55,747 nucleotides of DNA. Origin: Deltaproteobacteria bacterium. GTDB taxonomy: Bacteria; Desulfobacterota; Dissulfuribacteria; Dissulfuribacterales; QOAL01. The DNA is taken from the NCBI GenBank assembly GCA_024275145.1, contig JAJRZR010000004.1, forward strand, positions 1 to 55,747, written 5' to 3'. The translations under genes and the position numbers were made by a program. A model generated the notes under the pieces. The model ran no database searches. It was not told the origin of the DNA and saw only the letters and a program-made list of their open reading frames with translations. Positions 4,217-10,943 of the stretch are shown in pieces (within the stretch, counting starts at the first letter, position 1; the number at the start of each line of letters is the position of its first letter).

Positions 4217-5056
4217 ATGATTTTCATCACCACTGCAATGGCCTGTGAGGCCAAGTCATTGACGAGGCCTCTTGGCCTCAAGAAGCTCAAAGAATTCAGG
4301 GAATTTCCTGTGTACGAAGGAGGTGACTTCAGCCTGGTAATATCTGGTATTGGTAAAACCGCCTGTGCAACGGCAACCGCGTTTCTGCTTACAAGGTTTG
4401 AGGCAAACTCGTCCGATCTATTTATAAACCTTGGCCTTTGCGGCACCAAATCCCCACATCTTGCCACGGGCCAAGTCGTTATCGCCAACAAGATAACAGA
4501 CCATGACTCTGGCAGGTGCTTCATCCCTGACATGATGTGGAGACATCCCTTCCAGGAGGTCTCTATAGAAACCTTCTCTAGATGTGTAGAAGACGGTTGG
4601 GGTGGGACAAGGATCTCAGCGACATGTGTAGATATGGAGGCATCAGGGGCCTTTGAAGCGGCAAACTTTTTCCTCTCCCCCCATCAAATTTCCATTGTCA
4701 AAATAGTATACGATCACCTTAGCCCTGGCAAAAACGACCAAGCCTTCGTAACGGATTTTCTCACAATGCCTTGTGCAAGGATCTCGACATGGCTCAGGGA
4801 ATTGCCATCAGGATTGCTCAAGGAGCAGGAACCGCTTACAAACCAGGATCATGAGCTTCTCAGGCATGTAGCCCGTGAAATGAGGCTTACAGACACGATG
4901 TCCCATAAACTCAGGCAACTTGCGGTATATTGCAAGCTCTCTGGACAGGAACTAACGGGCCTCCTTAACGGTTACAGTAGACTCTCCTGCAGGACCAAAA
5001 AGGAGGGCAAGATGGCCTTTGAAAGACTCAAAAAAGAGATACTCTTGAAATGTTGA
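4217..5056 (+). CDS. Nucleoside phosphorylase/nucleosidase-like protein with helical C-terminal extension
   Basis: 279 residues. Residues 1-190 fit the PNP/MTA-SAH nucleosidase fold (COG0775-like): LVISGIGKTACATATAFLL near 40, FINLGLCG near 70 and the nucleoside-binding VDMEASG (138-144). The region between is shorter than in typical nucleosidases. Residues about 195-279 form a charged, probably helical tail of unknown function. Substrate cannot be told; MTA/SAH, futalosine or a modified nucleoside are all possible. The stop overlaps the start of the radical-SAM gene by 7 bases, so the two are probably translationally coupled and work on related substrates. Confidence 0.7.
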   Translation: MIFITTAMACEAKSLTRPLGLKKLKEFREFPVYEGGDFSLVISGIGKTACATATAFLLTRFEANSSDLFINLGLCGTKSPHLATGQVVIANKITDHDSGRCFIPDMMWRHPFQEVSIETFSRCVEDGWGGTRISATCVDMEASGAFEAANFFLSPHQISIVKIVYDHLSPGKNDQAFVTDFLTMPCARISTWLRELPSGLLKEQEPLTNQDHELLRHVAREMRLTDTMSHKLRQLAVYCKLSGQELTGLLNGYSRLSCRTKKEGKMAFERLKKEILLKC

Positions 5057-6060
5057 CCAAACGATTTTCGCACATCTACCTGGAGGATGATGTCCGAAAC
5101 ACCGAAACCGCAAGGAGGATATGCGCCAAATTTCCAGGTGCCCAACAAATCAGGATAAGACATTATAAGGATGTATTTTGTAGAAAAAGACAGGATTTTT
5201 GCCTTCAGAAGCTTGCTCCAAAGCTTATTATCGCAAAAAAACGCCCTCCACTTGTCTATCCTGGTTCGACCAATTGTGATTCCTTTGAAAGCAATCATTT
5301 TTATTACACCTCTTCCATGATGAATTGCCTCTATGATTGTGAATATTGTTATCTTAAGGGTATGTATCCCTCTGCAAATCTAGTGGTTTTTGTAAATCAT
5401 GAAGAAATATTCGAAGAAATAGACAGGAAACTCGAGTCTCATCCAGTGTATCTGTGTGTATCCTATGATACCGACCTGCTTTCGTTTGAAGCAATAACAG
5501 GCTTTGTGGATTTATGGATAGCGTTTTGTGAAGACCGTCCAGACCTACTCCTGGAAATCAGGACCAAGGCCGCCTTCATCAGGCCCTTTCTGACCAGGCC
5601 ACCTCTTGAAAACGTAATCATTGCATGGAGCCTTTCACCAGAATATGTGATCAGAAACCACGAAAGAGGTACCCCCGGCCTGGCAGCAAGGCTAAAAAGC
5701 ATAAAAAGGGTAATGGAGCTCGGTTGGCCGGTAAGGATATGCATTGATCCTGTTCTTTTTATAGATAATTGGGACAGGATCTATCAGGAGTTTCTGGATG
5801 AGGTATTCTTGAATCTGGCAGGAGATCAATTGGCATCAGTCAGCATCGGGGCCTTTCGTATATCAAAGGGGTATCTGAAAAGGGCAAGGCGGAGGTATCC
5901 TTGTTCCAGGATCCTGCACTATCCCTTCGAATTGAACCGGAACGGCGTCTACTGCTATCCACCATTCCTTGAGGACAAGATACTTGGAGATCTTGCCCAG
6001 CGGGTTGCCAGATTCGTTCCCACGGAGAAGATAAGGCTTTTCACATCTTCTACTCCCTGA
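5050..6060 (+). CDS. Spore photoproduct lyase-like radical SAM protein
   Basis: 336 residues. The iron-sulfur motif C93-x3-C97-x2-C100 sits in SSMMNCLYDCEYCYLKGMYP, the arrangement of the SplB family, which uses SAM to reverse thymine-dimer spore photoproduct. Cys136 (VYLCVSYD) lies about where the hydrogen-donor Cys of Bacillus SplB is expected, but alignment is needed. Homologues occur in bacteria that do not sporulate, where the substrate is unknown. It overlaps the nucleosidase-like gene upstream and, convergently by 11 bases, mlaA downstream. Confidence 0.8.
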   Translation: MLTKRFSHIYLEDDVRNTETARRICAKFPGAQQIRIRHYKDVFCRKRQDFCLQKLAPKLIIAKKRPPLVYPGSTNCDSFESNHFYYTSSMMNCLYDCEYCYLKGMYPSANLVVFVNHEEIFEEIDRKLESHPVYLCVSYDTDLLSFEAITGFVDLWIAFCEDRPDLLLEIRTKAAFIRPFLTRPPLENVIIAWSLSPEYVIRNHERGTPGLAARLKSIKRVMELGWPVRICIDPVLFIDNWDRIYQEFLDEVFLNLAGDQLASVSIGAFRISKGYLKRARRRYPCSRILHYPFELNRNGVYCYPPFLEDKILGDLAQRVARFVPTEKIRLFTSSTP

Positions 6061-6886
6061 TCGCCTGCCGTCTGTTTTGTATGTACGCATTCCGAACGGC
6101 AACATAGGGATCAAAGGCCGACTCCTTGAGTGCCTCGTAATCCCCAAGGGTCAGGGATGTCTTGTTTACTATCTCAAAGCCCCTTAGCCCAAACGAAAGC
6201 CCAAGGGGTTTTACGTATGAATCCGGCTGCAAGGCGTAATCTCCCAGGAACCCAAAGGAGTCACGCACAGTAGAGGGACCCAACAGGGGCCACACTATAT
6301 AGAATCCGTCTCCAAGGCCCCATGTTGCAAGTGTCTGGCCGGTATCCTCCGACGGGGGATTTAGCCATGCATAGTCCTTTGATGGGGTCATGAAGCCCAG
6401 TAATCCAACGCTAGTATTTACGACGAAACGGCAGGTTTCCTTGCCAGCCCTCTTGAATTTTCCCTGAAGCAGGTCATTTACAAGGCGTACCGGGTAGACG
6501 ATATTATAAAAAAAGTTCCTGATTCCTGTTCGTATTTTTTTAGGGGTTACAAACCGATAGCCCCTTGCTACCGGCTTGAGGACATCAAAATACAGCCGGT
6601 CGTTGAAGGTGAACATAGCACGGTTGAAGCCTTCGAGTGGATCCTTTACCAGGCTTTCCTCATCGTCACCATAGTCGTCGTAATCCTCGTCATAATCATA
6701 GTTCTCATCGCCATGCCGATCCTGACCAACGGAAACCGAGGATACCGACGTGTTGACCTGCATGGCCGCCCCCTTATCATCTGCTGCCATGGACATCTCA
6801 TGCCCTGAAAGGAAAATATACAGTAGTAAACCAGCGGTCATGCCCACAAAGAAGGAGATTTTTCTTGTTGGTTTCAATTCGACCAT
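6050..6886 (-). CDS. mlaA: MlaA-like outer-membrane phospholipid transport protein
   Basis: 278 residues. The body from about 80 onwards is the MlaA (VacJ) domain: DPLEGFNRAMFTFNDRLYF, YPVRLVNDLLQGKF, SVGLLGFMTPSKD, GLGDGFYIVWPLLGPST. MlaA removes misplaced phospholipid from the outer leaflet and passes it to MlaC. The leader (residues 1-35, ending MSMAADD) is hydrophobic but has no lipobox Cys, unlike E. coli MlaA, and is followed by a very acidic Asp/Tyr/Glu linker (about 58-80). It is the last gene of the mlaE-F-D-C-A series. GAGGA lies 7 bases before the ATG. Confidence 0.92.
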   Translation of the reverse strand: MVELKPTRKISFFVGMTAGLLLYIFLSGHEMSMAADDKGAAMQVNTSVSSVSVGQDRHGDENYDYDEDYDDYGDDEESLVKDPLEGFNRAMFTFNDRLYFDVLKPVARGYRFVTPKKIRTGIRNFFYNIVYPVRLVNDLLQGKFKRAGKETCRFVVNTSVGLLGFMTPSKDYAWLNPPSEDTGQTLATWGLGDGFYIVWPLLGPSTVRDSFGFLGDYALQPDSYVKPLGLSFGLRGFEIVNKTSLTLGDYEALKESAFDPYVAVRNAYIQNRRQAIRE

Positions 6887-6906: not shown

Positions 6907-7569
6907 TTATGGCTTAGCAGTGGAGGGTTCTTCCTTTTCAGGCTGATTAACCTTGTTTCGCATCTCTTCCAATACCTGTTCAGGGGATTTCTTCCTGAGC
7001 AGCTCATTGAATTGGCTCCTGTAATTCTTCACAAGGCTGACCCCATCTATGACTACATCATATCCTACCCACCTACCCTTCTTTCGTATCAATCGGTAAT
7101 AGATGGGTACCTCCTGGCCGTTGTAGAGCACCTTCGTGCGTATCTCTACCTTGTTTCTGGAAAATTTGATTTCCTTTCCAAAAATTATCCTTTCGCCTGA
7201 ATAGCTTTCTACCTTTTTAAGGTAGGTTTTCTCGAGCAATTTGGCAAACAAATCACTGAACTCCTGAAACTGTTCAGGGCTGAATTGCCTGCGGTGCCTG
7301 CCCAGGACCCATTTCGAGGTCTCCTGAAAATCGAATATCTGATAGACCAGCTCACGTAGCCTGGCACGACGTCTCTCCTTGTTGCATTCTCCTTTGTATG
7401 CAGGGTTCTGAAGCACACCTATTATGCCATTTATGGCGTCCTTCACGACCTTATATGGATCATCCTGCGGAAATCCGGCATACACACTGCCTGATGAAAT
7501 AAAGAGTATGGCCATAAATACAGCCAGTATCCTACATGTGGAAATGCCCTTCATTAGCTTCATTTTCAT
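6907..7569 (-). CDS. mlaC: MlaC-like periplasmic phospholipid shuttle
   Basis: 220 residues from the ATG at 7569; a longer frame begins at 7620 but the signal peptide (MKMKLMKGISTCRILAVFMAILFI region, ending VYAGF) starts here and GGAAGG is just upstream. An ATG at 7563 is equally possible. The mature part has the MlaC/Ttg2D pattern (YQIFDFQETSKWVLGRHRR, FSDLFAKLLEKTYL, YRLIRKKGRWVGYDVVIDGVSLV). It carries phospholipids between MlaA and the inner-membrane MlaFED complex. It lies between mlaD and mlaA on the same strand. Confidence 0.9.
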   Translation of the reverse strand: MKMKLMKGISTCRILAVFMAILFISSGSVYAGFPQDDPYKVVKDAINGIIGVLQNPAYKGECNKERRRARLRELVYQIFDFQETSKWVLGRHRRQFSPEQFQEFSDLFAKLLEKTYLKKVESYSGERIIFGKEIKFSRNKVEIRTKVLYNGQEVPIYYRLIRKKGRWVGYDVVIDGVSLVKNYRSQFNELLRKKSPEQVLEEMRNKVNQPEKEEPSTAKP

Positions 7570-7660
7570 TATCCTTCCGATGCCTGGATAGCGCTCAAAC
7601 ATCTCCCTGTTACACTCCAAAGCAAACCTTAAATGCGCGGCCCTGACCCTTACGTCCCAC

Positions 7661-7711: not shown

Positions 7712-8158
7712 CTACACCTTACCATGGACAAATTGCCTTATGAGGTCTTCTATATCCAGGGTGGATTCGGTATCCGTGATCGTATCCCCTGGTTTCAGGA
7801 TCTCTTCTGACCCACCGGGTGTTATCGATATATATTTGTCACCAATAAGGCCGCTGGTTTTGACCGATGCAATGGCGTCTTCCTGAACCGGGATATCTTT
7901 CTTTATCTTGAGTGAGACCACTGCCATTTCGGAATTGACATCAAGTCTTATGTCACCGACTCTCCCCACTTCCACCCCTGCAATCTCAACACTGCTGTCA
8001 GGTTTGAGCCCGCTCACATTATCAAACTTGGCATATATCACGTAGAAATTACCACCTATTATCTCCATCTTACCCAGCTTGACGGTAAGATACACCACAC
8101 ACAAGAGGCCAATAAAGACAAACACGCCTACTGCCGTTTCCATGGTATATTTTTTCAT
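7712..8158 (-). CDS. mlaD: MlaD-like MCE-domain lipid transport protein
   Basis: 148 residues. An N-terminal membrane anchor (about 8-27, VGVFVFIGLLCVVYLTVKLG) is followed by one MCE domain (GLKPDSSVEIAGVEVGRV, VKTSGLIGDKYISITPGG). MlaD forms the periplasmic hexameric ring on the MlaFEDB transporter. Its ATG overlaps the mlaF stop (ATGA-type), pointing to translational coupling. Size is normal for single-MCE proteins. Confidence 0.93.
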   Translation of the reverse strand: MKKYTMETAVGVFVFIGLLCVVYLTVKLGKMEIIGGNFYVIYAKFDNVSGLKPDSSVEIAGVEVGRVGDIRLDVNSEMAVVSLKIKKDIPVQEDAIASVKTSGLIGDKYISITPGGSEEILKPGDTITDTESTLDIEDLIRQFVHGKV

Positions 8159-9399
8159 GATTTACTAACCCGCATTCCCGCAGTGCATTCTAGGTGAGCG
8201 ATTGTTTTCAGGTTTGATCTTGCCTGTTCGATCAGGGATTCCAGGGTCGCCTCGCTGTTCGCCTGGACTATCCCGGCCTTTATATAAAATTCCGGGCAAA
8301 TCCTGGGATACGTCTTTGCCTGGAACGTCTCCGCATCCTTCATCCTTTCGGCCAGATCCTTCAGGAAGTGCCGGGCCCCGGAAAGATCGGTATGGGGCAG
8401 AACCGTGAGGATCTCGTTCTGGCTGAACCTTGCAGACATGCCAGTAGTGCCAAGATGCCCCTTGAGTAAGTTGCCGAGACACTGGACAATTCTCTGGGCC
8501 GCTATGAACCCCACCTTTTCCCTTATGAGTTCAAGATCATCTATTACGAACAGGACAACGGAAAAGGTCTTCTGAAACCTGCCTATCCTGGAAAGCTCCT
8601 GCCTTATCTTCTGTTCCAGGTCAGGCCTGGTAAGCAACCCGGTGAGTTCATCTGCCAGGCTTTCCTGTCCTCTTATAAACTGTTGAACCAAAGGGTCATT
8701 AGACTGTTCCAGTTCCACCGGGGTGCCTTGAAAGGGGATACGCTTATCCTCGATGATGGCAACTCGGTTCGAGATGAGGAAAACGTCAGGGATATCGTGA
8801 CTCACCATCACGGCAGTGAATCCTATTTCCCTCTGGTGATGGGCTATCATACTGAGCACCGTGTTCTTGCGAAGGGGGTCCAGGCCGGTCGTAGGTTCGT
8901 CGAAAAGGATGATGCTGGGATCCGTGACCAGTGCCCTGGCCAGCGCCACCCTCTTTTGCATTCCACCCGAGATCTGGGATGGAAATTTGTCGGTAACCTC
9001 GGAAAGCTCGAATTGTTCGATCCGTGCCATGACCTTTTCATGGATCTCCCTTGCAGGCATCCGGGTACGCTCCCTCAAAGGCAATGCCACGTTATCGAAA
9101 ACGGTCATGGAATCGAAGAGCGCGTTCTGTTGAAACATGTAACTGACCCTGCGTTTTAGTTGCTTCCATTCGGCCTTGGACATTGATCTTAGCGGTCTGC
9201 CCTCGAACAGAATCTCTCCTGCATCCGGTTTCAGGAGGCCAATTATGTGTTTCAGGAGCACGCTTTTCCCAGCCCCGCTCTTACCAATGATAGTGGTGAT
9301 TTCGCCTTTGAAAATGGTAAGATCAACACCAGCCAGTATAGTGCGTTCCCCAAAACGCTTGACAACGTTTTTGAACTCTACAAAGGGACTTTTGGTCAC
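8155..9399 (-). CDS. mlaF: MlaF-like ABC ATPase fused to a degenerate GGDEF-like domain
   Basis: 414 residues, GTG start 7 bases after the mlaE stop. Residues 1-245 are a complete MlaF ATPase: Walker A GKSGAGKS (39-46), signature ISGGMQKR (143-150), Walker B LFDEPTTGLD (165-174), switch His201. MlaF proteins usually end near 270. Residues about 248-404 are an extra domain with the outline of GGDEF: DELTGLLTRPDLEQKI, FSVVLFVIDDLELIREKVG, then ARFSQNEILTVLP where diguanylate cyclases have R-[YF]-GGDEF. The motif is SQNEI (326-330), so catalytic activity is unlikely; a sensing or regulatory role for lipid transport is inferred. Confidence 0.9.
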   Translation of the reverse strand: MTKSPFVEFKNVVKRFGERTILAGVDLTIFKGEITTIIGKSGAGKSVLLKHIIGLLKPDAGEILFEGRPLRSMSKAEWKQLKRRVSYMFQQNALFDSMTVFDNVALPLRERTRMPAREIHEKVMARIEQFELSEVTDKFPSQISGGMQKRVALARALVTDPSIILFDEPTTGLDPLRKNTVLSMIAHHQREIGFTAVMVSHDIPDVFLISNRVAIIEDKRIPFQGTPVELEQSNDPLVQQFIRGQESLADELTGLLTRPDLEQKIRQELSRIGRFQKTFSVVLFVIDDLELIREKVGFIAAQRIVQCLGNLLKGHLGTTGMSARFSQNEILTVLPHTDLSGARHFLKDLAERMKDAETFQAKTYPRICPEFYIKAGIVQANSEATLESLIEQARSNLKTIAHLECTAGMRVSKS

Positions 9400-9406
9400 T
9401 TGGCCC

Positions 9407-10213
9407 TCACAGTAACAAGGATGTCAGGACATAATCTGCCGCCAAAACCAGTACACATGAAATAACAACGGCCGAAGTGGTTGCAAGACTGACCCCCCTT
9501 GCACCGAATCCACCAGACCTCAAATGTGTAAAATATCCCTGGTAAGAACAGATCGTTGATACTATTATCGCAAAGGCCAAGGACTTCCAGTAGCCACTGG
9601 ATATGTCCTGCATGACCACGCTGTCATATATACGGTTGAAATATATACCGGAGTTTATCTTTAAAAGCAGGCAACCCGTCAGGTAACCTCCAAAGATACC
9701 TATAACGTCAAACAACGATGTAAGGAGTGGAAAGCTTATTATTGAGGCCCCTATCCTTGGACTGACCAGAAAACGAATTGGATCGATATCCATGGTGTCG
9801 AGGGCATCAATCTGTTCCGATATGCGCATGATGCCAATCTCGGCAGCCATTGACGAACCAGCCCGGCCTATAACCATGAGCGCAGTGAGGACCGGTCCAA
9901 GTTCCCTGAGGAGCGACAGCGCAACCGCTGCGCCCAGCATGCCTTCCGAACCAAATTTTACCAACGTATAATAGCCTTGAAGGCCCAAGACCATCCCTGT
10001 GAAAAGACCCACCAGCGAAACGATCATTATCGACTTGGCCCCTATGAAGTAGACCTGCTGCATGATCTTTCCAGGCTGAAATGGATAGGAAAAGATGTGG
10101 ACAAATCCCTGGAAGAAAAAGATTGCAATTGCCCCCAATTCCCCCACAAAGGAAATAAAGCCCCTACCCAAATACCTGAACAAGGCCAAGGGCAGGGCTT
10201 GATTCTTAATCAT
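9407..10213 (-). CDS. mlaE: MlaE-like permease
   Basis: 268 residues, with five or so hydrophobic segments and the MlaE hallmarks GMVLGLQGYYTLVKFGSE, LRELGPVLTALMVIGRAGSSMAAEIG, and EQIDALDTMDIDPIRFLVSPR. It is the membrane subunit of the MlaFED phospholipid transporter. First gene of the mla set, read from the minus strand; the siroheme-reductase-like pseudogene lies 70 bases upstream on the same strand, so a longer transcript is possible. Confidence 0.94.
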   Translation of the reverse strand: MIKNQALPLALFRYLGRGFISFVGELGAIAIFFFQGFVHIFSYPFQPGKIMQQVYFIGAKSIMIVSLVGLFTGMVLGLQGYYTLVKFGSEGMLGAAVALSLLRELGPVLTALMVIGRAGSSMAAEIGIMRISEQIDALDTMDIDPIRFLVSPRIGASIISFPLLTSLFDVIGIFGGYLTGCLLLKINSGIYFNRIYDSVVMQDISSGYWKSLAFAIIVSTICSYQGYFTHLRSGGFGARGVSLATTSAVVISCVLVLAADYVLTSLLL

Positions 10214-10284: not shown

Positions 10285-10943
10285 TCATGACAACACCGCC
10301 CGGGCAAACTCTTCCATACCGACCCGTTCTATGAGCCTTCCCATCCTATCCGCCTTTTTGGCGTTCTTTGCATAGAAATCAATGACCTTTCCCGCAAGAA
10401 CGAGGGCCTCTTCAGCAGAAAGGCCAGAGGTCAACTGCCTTGCCAACATAGGCCTGGGCCCTCCATTACCACCTACTGTAACCGTCCAGCCACTGGATTT
10501 CCCGATGAATCCAAGGTCCTTTATACAATTTTCAGAGCACTGGTTCACACACCCTGACACCCCTATCTTGAACTTAGCCGGCAGTTTGAGCCCATGATAC
10601 CATTTATCCAGCTCAGCACCGAGCCCCAGGGAATCCTGTTTCCCAAGCCGGCAAAGGTCGTACCCGGACAGGCCTTTATACTCCTGATGCACGCCCCAAC
10701 TGCTGCCCCAGGGTCCATGCCTAGATCAGACCATATCCGATCCACATCTTCCTCCCTGACACCCACAAGGGCAACACGATCGGCACTGGTGATTTTCATG
10801 GCCGTTACCCGGTACCTGTCAGCAATTTCAGATAACCTTGTCAACAAATCAGAGGTGACTATCCCGAGGGGAATATGGGGTACTATGGCATACGTCTCTC
10901 TGTCCCTTTGGAGTACTACCCCTTTTTCTCCATCCTTGAGCAT
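10285..10943 (-). pseudogene. Nitrite/sulfite reductase-like 4Fe-4S protein, frameshifted
   Basis: Two overlapping frames make one protein of about 219 residues. The first (ATG 10943, good GGGAGGAAGG site) reads to ACPGTTF; the sequence then continues as CRLGKQDSLGLG...GVSGCVNQCSENC in the next frame, down to the stop at 10285. The break is at 10653-10655, where the minus strand reads ACCTTTGCC; one more T would restore C-P-G-T-T-F-C-R-L-G, the C-x5-C half of the siroheme/4Fe-4S site (C-x5-C...C-x3-C). Small single-unit relatives are found in anaerobes, function often unknown. Either a real inactivating deletion or a base-calling error. A ferredoxin gene overlaps its start by 28 bases. Confidence 0.8.

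Follow-up and report, generated by a model that had tools for sequence, protein, structure and literature searches.

The window analysed here, a 55,747-nucleotide stretch of DNA from a Deltaproteobacteria bacterium, carries an intact mla operon transcribed in the order mlaE-mlaF-mlaD-mlaC-mlaA. Each neighbour of mlaF was confirmed by its own Pfam family, and the mlaC, D and E partners by which membership of MlaF is judged are all encoded at the locus.

9407..10213, minus strand: mlaE permease, 268 amino acids (Pfam PF02405, E 7.3e-76, the sole match; no STAS domain)
8155..9399, minus strand: mlaF-GGDEF fusion gene, 414 amino acids, GTG start, an uninterrupted open reading frame with full-length homologues in many genomes
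7712..8158, minus strand: mlaD, an MCE protein (Pfam PF02470, E 6.3e-22)
6907..7620, minus strand: mlaC periplasmic carrier (Pfam PF05494, E 7.2e-47)
6050..6886, minus strand: mlaA outer-membrane lipoprotein (Pfam PF04333, E 1.9e-69)

The stop codon of mlaF overlaps the start of mlaD in the sequence ATGA and the gap between mlaE and mlaF is seven bases, so the GGDEF domain is encoded inside a tight operon. A sequencing, frame or assembly artefact was ruled out by a congener (94% identical) and dozens of genomes with the same full-length fusion. Just upstream of mlaE, a small nitrite/sulfite reductase-like protein (10285-10943, minus strand) seems to be split into overlapping frames (10943-10563 and 10692-10285), perhaps by a frameshift or sequencing error. 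Convergent with mlaA is a gene (5050-6060, plus strand) whose product has a spore photoproduct lyase domain (Pfam SPL).

The N-terminal part of the fusion protein is an ABC ATPase.

8665..9399, minus strand: MlaF nucleotide-binding domain, residues 1-245, with Walker A and B, the signature SGGMQKR and the H-loop intact

MlaF is matched over residues 5-244, both by the family model (NCBIfam PRK11831, E 2.3e-65) and by the E. coli structure 6xbd (E 2.1e-58); PRK11831 is the top NCBIfam match, yet at 220.6 bits it scores below the curated cut-off of 441. The catalytic columns of the ATPase are invariant in the alignment of relatives, and Foldseek finds the ATPase part of the full-length model to be most like E. 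coli MlaF. The alignment with the E. coli protein runs to residue 244 (QFIRG/QFLDG) and then ends, and the GGDEF match begins at about residue 249. The original prediction described residues 1-245 as a complete MlaF. This holds for the ATPase core. The C-terminal extension of approximately 25 residues known from E. coli is missing, however, and the GGDEF domain is found in its place.

8203..8655, minus strand: degenerate GGDEF domain, residues 249-399 (Pfam PF00990; AlphaFold2 and Foldseek)

Pfam GGDEF matches residues 249-399 at 56.5 bits, well above the cut-off of 23.8 (E 3.6e-15), and the tail searched by itself matches both Pfam GGDEF (E 4.3e-16) and NCBIfam TIGR00254 (E 1.3e-13). The profile match covers 151 of the 161 GGDEF positions, and the same Pfam family is matched by all 60 of 60 non-redundant relatives, which puts the assignment far beyond chance. 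An AlphaFold2 model of the domain, made with 60 aligned tails, has the strand and helix order of GGDEF domains (mean pLDDT 90.5, pTM 0.86). Foldseek listed 50 PDB matches for this model, every one a GGDEF domain or protein, and the query-normalised TM-scores to solved GGDEF domains are about 0.65-0.75. Searching a profile of the tails against PDB sequences gave 53 matches, nearly all of them diguanylate cyclases or degenerate relatives. The GGDEF-type domain that had been proposed to follow MlaF from motif layout is therefore present, and structure prediction, named beforehand as the check that could overturn the proposal, returned the fold. The motifs on which it was based were also found, with DELTGL at residues 250-255, VLFVIDDLELIREKVG from residue 282 and ARFSQNEI at residues 323-330.

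We next consider which residues the domain has lost and kept, based on an alignment of 68 distinct fused tails with the canonical GGDEF domains of the window's genome.

8635..8652, minus strand: DELTGL wide-turn motif, residues 250-255, with L252, T253 and G254 at least 90% conserved in 60 tails
8545..8547, minus strand: Val285, replacing the first metal-binding Asp (Asp in 0/68 fused tails)
8410..8424, minus strand: SQNEI, residues 326-330, replacing GG(D/E)EF (intact motif in 0/68)
8296..8298, minus strand: Cys368 (Cys in 51/68 tails)
8185..8187, minus strand: Cys405, at the column of the Arg in the GRN motif (Cys in 54/68 tails)

The Asp of GHxxGD is Gln in 53/68 fused tails, and the guanine-contact Asn is retained in 15/68 only. 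By reference to PleD structures, these residues are assigned to GTP contacts. By contrast with these losses, the fused tails retain the DxLTGL turn, an Arg before the hairpin (68/68), a Pro after the hairpin (62/68) and a later Gly (64/68). Among the signal-coupling elements of GGDEF domains the DELTGL wide turn is the best conserved, and the pattern of retained residues indicates that what survives is the fold together with the means of coupling it to the preceding helix. A cyclase can remain active after a single substitution, for example to AGDEF or SGDEF (PMC3974145). In the fused tails several independent ligands are lost together, and an active diguanylate cyclase was ruled out by the residue survey. 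Judged by its residues, the domain is non-catalytic as a cyclase; the earlier description of it as catalytically dead extends, with SQNEI for GGDEF and Val285 for the metal Asp, to a family-wide loss of catalytic residues.

Purifying selection acts on the GGDEF tail. Its dN/dS is about 0.04-0.2 in nearly all close pairs, compared with about 0.02-0.15 for the ATPase, although noise affects the very close pairs, saturation is near for some synonymous values and one value was not computable. The loss of catalytic residues under purifying selection indicates a conserved pseudo-enzyme rather than decay, and a decaying pseudodomain was ruled out by these ratios.

In an even sample of 395 genomes from the window's phylum, 50 have the full-length fusion, and these span 19 family codes; a fusion cut by a contig end adds another code (f3). 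Among 200 sampled genomes of Burkholderia's phylum none reached the score for the fusion, in a search run without its own positive control; the same query gives about 1e-150 to 1e-213 on fused genomes. Outside the phylum, coverage consisted of these 200 genomes of one other phylum and a contig pattern scan reaching close relatives only. In a tree of the ATPase domain made by a quick method, all 69 fused rows fall in one clade (SH-aLRT 96) together with eight unfused rows. One unfused row in this clade (L057) is cut by a contig end, and another (L130) keeps a stub of the first helix of the GGDEF domain, which points to secondary loss. The fusion state needs six changes on this tree, three of them forced by starred branches. 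Because the fused ATPases fall in one clade, the fusion was probably gained once, with some later losses, which is the simplest reading of the tree rather than a proof. The identities of the ATPase and tail correlate (Mantel r 0.885, 0/2000 permutations), as expected if both parts travelled together. In several members of the fused clade the tail is short, which indicates that the domain is dispensable in some lineages.

Several loci depart from the common arrangement. Genome G176 (f70) has two fused MlaF-GGDEF genes in one operon (L101, 477-1829 and 4731-6062), the second of which follows mlaA and groups with early-branching members in the ATPase tree. Three loci of f50 (L132, L133 and L134, in G420, G251 and G312) encode a fused-clade MlaF that lacks the GGDEF tail, and no mlaE, D, C or A could be recognised in their surroundings. 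At L058 (G132, f26) and L131 (G269, f89) the E-F-D-C-A operon is complete and its MlaF, which branches within the fused clade or at its base, is unfused; these two provide natural tail-less comparisons. Some unfused MlaF frames (L059-L063) seem to have long N-terminal extensions, but these were attributed to out-of-frame read-through of the upstream gene and not to fusion.

As read from its genes, the transporter is a complete MlaEFDCA system with an anciently fused, selected GGDEF domain at the ATPase C-terminus that is non-catalytic by sequence. We give about an even chance to the reading that this is a regulatory, dimer-stabilising C-terminal domain of the MlaF ATPase. Such a role is suggested by the position of the domain, which starts exactly where the E. 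coli MlaF extension starts. In E. coli this extension is required for MlaF dimerisation and function, an artificial dimerising domain largely substitutes for it, and MlaB is required for MlaF to remain in the complex (PMC7367683). The fusion point, the absence of a listed STAS gene from the operons and the presence of regulatory C-terminal domains at this position of the ABC ATPase in MetN and ModC (PMC10710835) all favour this role. The operons with fused mlaF are E-F-D-C-A, and among the matches listed for two STAS models there was no STAS gene beside fused mlaF. An intact ATPase motor alongside lost cyclase residues was also counted in favour, as were the fold and homology of the domain, the purifying selection on it, the joint evolution of ATPase and tail, and the placement of all fused proteins in a single clade. 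Counted against it is that unfused operons in the window's phylum are likewise without a linked MlaB; Veillonella MlaEFD functions without MlaB (PMC10665443). The short tails of several fused-clade members and the low confidence of the model at the junction also weigh against it.

In the proposed mechanism, each MlaF would contribute one pseudo-GGDEF domain, and the two would lie under the ATPase dimer, coupled to it by the final helix of the ATPase and by the DELTGL turn, which is conserved. The pair would hold or reset the ATPase dimer, with the domain standing in for the E. coli MlaF C-terminal extension plus MlaB, and a ligand or partner might switch it, as methionine does MetN. The AlphaFold2 models contain a folded domain C-terminal to the nucleotide-binding domain, as in MetN/ModC-type regulatory domains. 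Between MetN and the full-length model, the Foldseek alignment extends over about 360 columns, but its rmsd of 7-10 Å does not fix the placement of the domain. The junction has low confidence (block pLDDT 53 at residues 241-250), so the relative placement of the ATPase and GGDEF domains is not given by the model.

Degenerate GGDEF domains are often c-di-GMP receptors through an RxxD motif (PMC7112168, PMC3974145), and the pseudo-GGDEF domain could accordingly bind c-di-GMP or another nucleotide and couple lipid transport to the second-messenger or energy state, as in PelD/PopA. RxxD does occupy the I-site columns in six early-branching fused proteins (codes f46, f76 and f43), and c-di-GMP synthesis by the host is probable, given about six canonical GGDEF domains in the window's genome. 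However, the window copy reads GTTG at the I-site and most others are also without RxxD (R in 7/68, D in 13/68), and the guanine and phosphate ligands are swapped, with Asp to Gln in 53/68 and the terminal GRN Arg to Cys in 54/68. Since the window copy has neither the GTP ligands nor the RxxD I-site, the case for its sensing nucleotides, one of the roles suggested in the original prediction, is weakened, and we consider the receptor reading unlikely. The RxxD motifs of the six early-branching members make an ancestral role possible, and the ancestor of the fused proteins may have been a c-di-GMP receptor. A fuller scenario, in which the fusion arose as an Mla-ATPase c-di-GMP receptor, the RxxD members still bind the ligand and the window lineage became a ligand-free or differently gated switch, appears doubtful to us; if true, a biofilm second messenger would once have directly set the rate of phospholipid transport. 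The same genome has two more weakly matching GGDEF domains, L166 (G000:C66:54262-54699) and L165 (G000:C51:1401-1637), the former reading RVDVARF where canonical domains have RYGGDEF.

GGDEF folds are known interaction modules, and the loss of catalytic residues with conservation of the fold would fit a docking platform through which the transporter recruits a cytosolic partner, such as a localisation factor, an active cyclase or an enzyme of lipid synthesis. Across families, though, the fused operons share no additional conserved neighbour, and docking seems improbable. Clustering of neighbour genes at fused loci yielded no conserved partner, most of the output being antisense shadow ORFs; the sole recurrent, real-looking neighbour is a gene for a secreted-looking protein, found within a few kb of the mla operon at 12 fused loci in four families (including L052, L054, L055, L098-L100, L103 and L112). 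The two cysteines raise a further idea, a disulfide or metal site formed by Cys368 and Cys405 that would lock the domain as a redox or metal switch. They co-occur in 43/68 tails, and Cys405 stands for the canonical Arg of GRN, but six tails have neither Cys and 19 more are missing at least one of the two, making such a switch very unlikely. Finally, an inactive and functionless leftover of an old gene fusion would be consistent with the lost catalytic residues and with the loss of the domain in some lineages of the clade, one of which has a remnant (L130). That reading is hardly credible given a tail dN/dS of about 0.04-0.2 in nearly all close pairs and a fold kept across 19 family codes.

MlaF, degenerate GGDEF domains and regulatory C-terminal domains on ABC ATPases are each already known separately. 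We found no description of the MlaF-GGDEF combination in the open-access literature, the part of the literature that was searched, with subscription journals falling outside it. In E. coli, Mla regulation has two known handles, the MlaF tail and the small protein MlaB (PMC7367683). In the broad lineage described here, an entire folded domain has been added to the Mla motor subunit, which powers phospholipid movement between the inner and outer membranes, at the same point as the E. coli tail, and the fold of a second-messenger enzyme has been reused as a transporter part. Maintained by selection despite its lost enzyme parts, the attached enzyme-shaped domain probably controls or stabilises the transporter, and the fusion offers a single-chain system for testing control of the ATPase dimer.

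The closest known system is E. coli MlaF in the MlaFEDB complex (PDB 6xbd, 6xgy; PMC7367683), with an ATPase core 41-42% identical in structural alignment and the same operon partners mlaE, D and C. There, some 25 residues of extension wrap around the adjacent MlaF and contact MlaB, whereas in the window protein a GGDEF fold of roughly 155 residues takes their place and no MlaB gene is linked. MetN (of MetNI) and ModC also contain a folded regulatory domain C-terminal to the ABC ATPase, but it belongs to another domain family and serves small-molecule import rather than lipid transport. The ammonium transporter with a GGDEF domain (PDB 8qj3, 8qpf) likewise has its GGDEF-matching stretch at the C-terminal end of the transporter chain, although Amt is not an ABC ATPase and is related through the GGDEF domain alone. 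PelD, which binds c-di-GMP through RxxD (PMC7112168), and other degenerate GGDEF c-di-GMP receptors resemble the window protein in having a degenerate active site and using the GGDEF fold for regulation beside a membrane machine; PelD retains RxxD, while the window protein does not, and the partner here is an ABC ATPase. With the GGDEF cyclase domains of PleD, WspR, DosC and Marinobacter 3ign, the window domain shares the fold, the DxLTGL turn and the Arg before the active-site hairpin, but it is without GG(D/E)EF, the first metal Asp and the GRN arginine.
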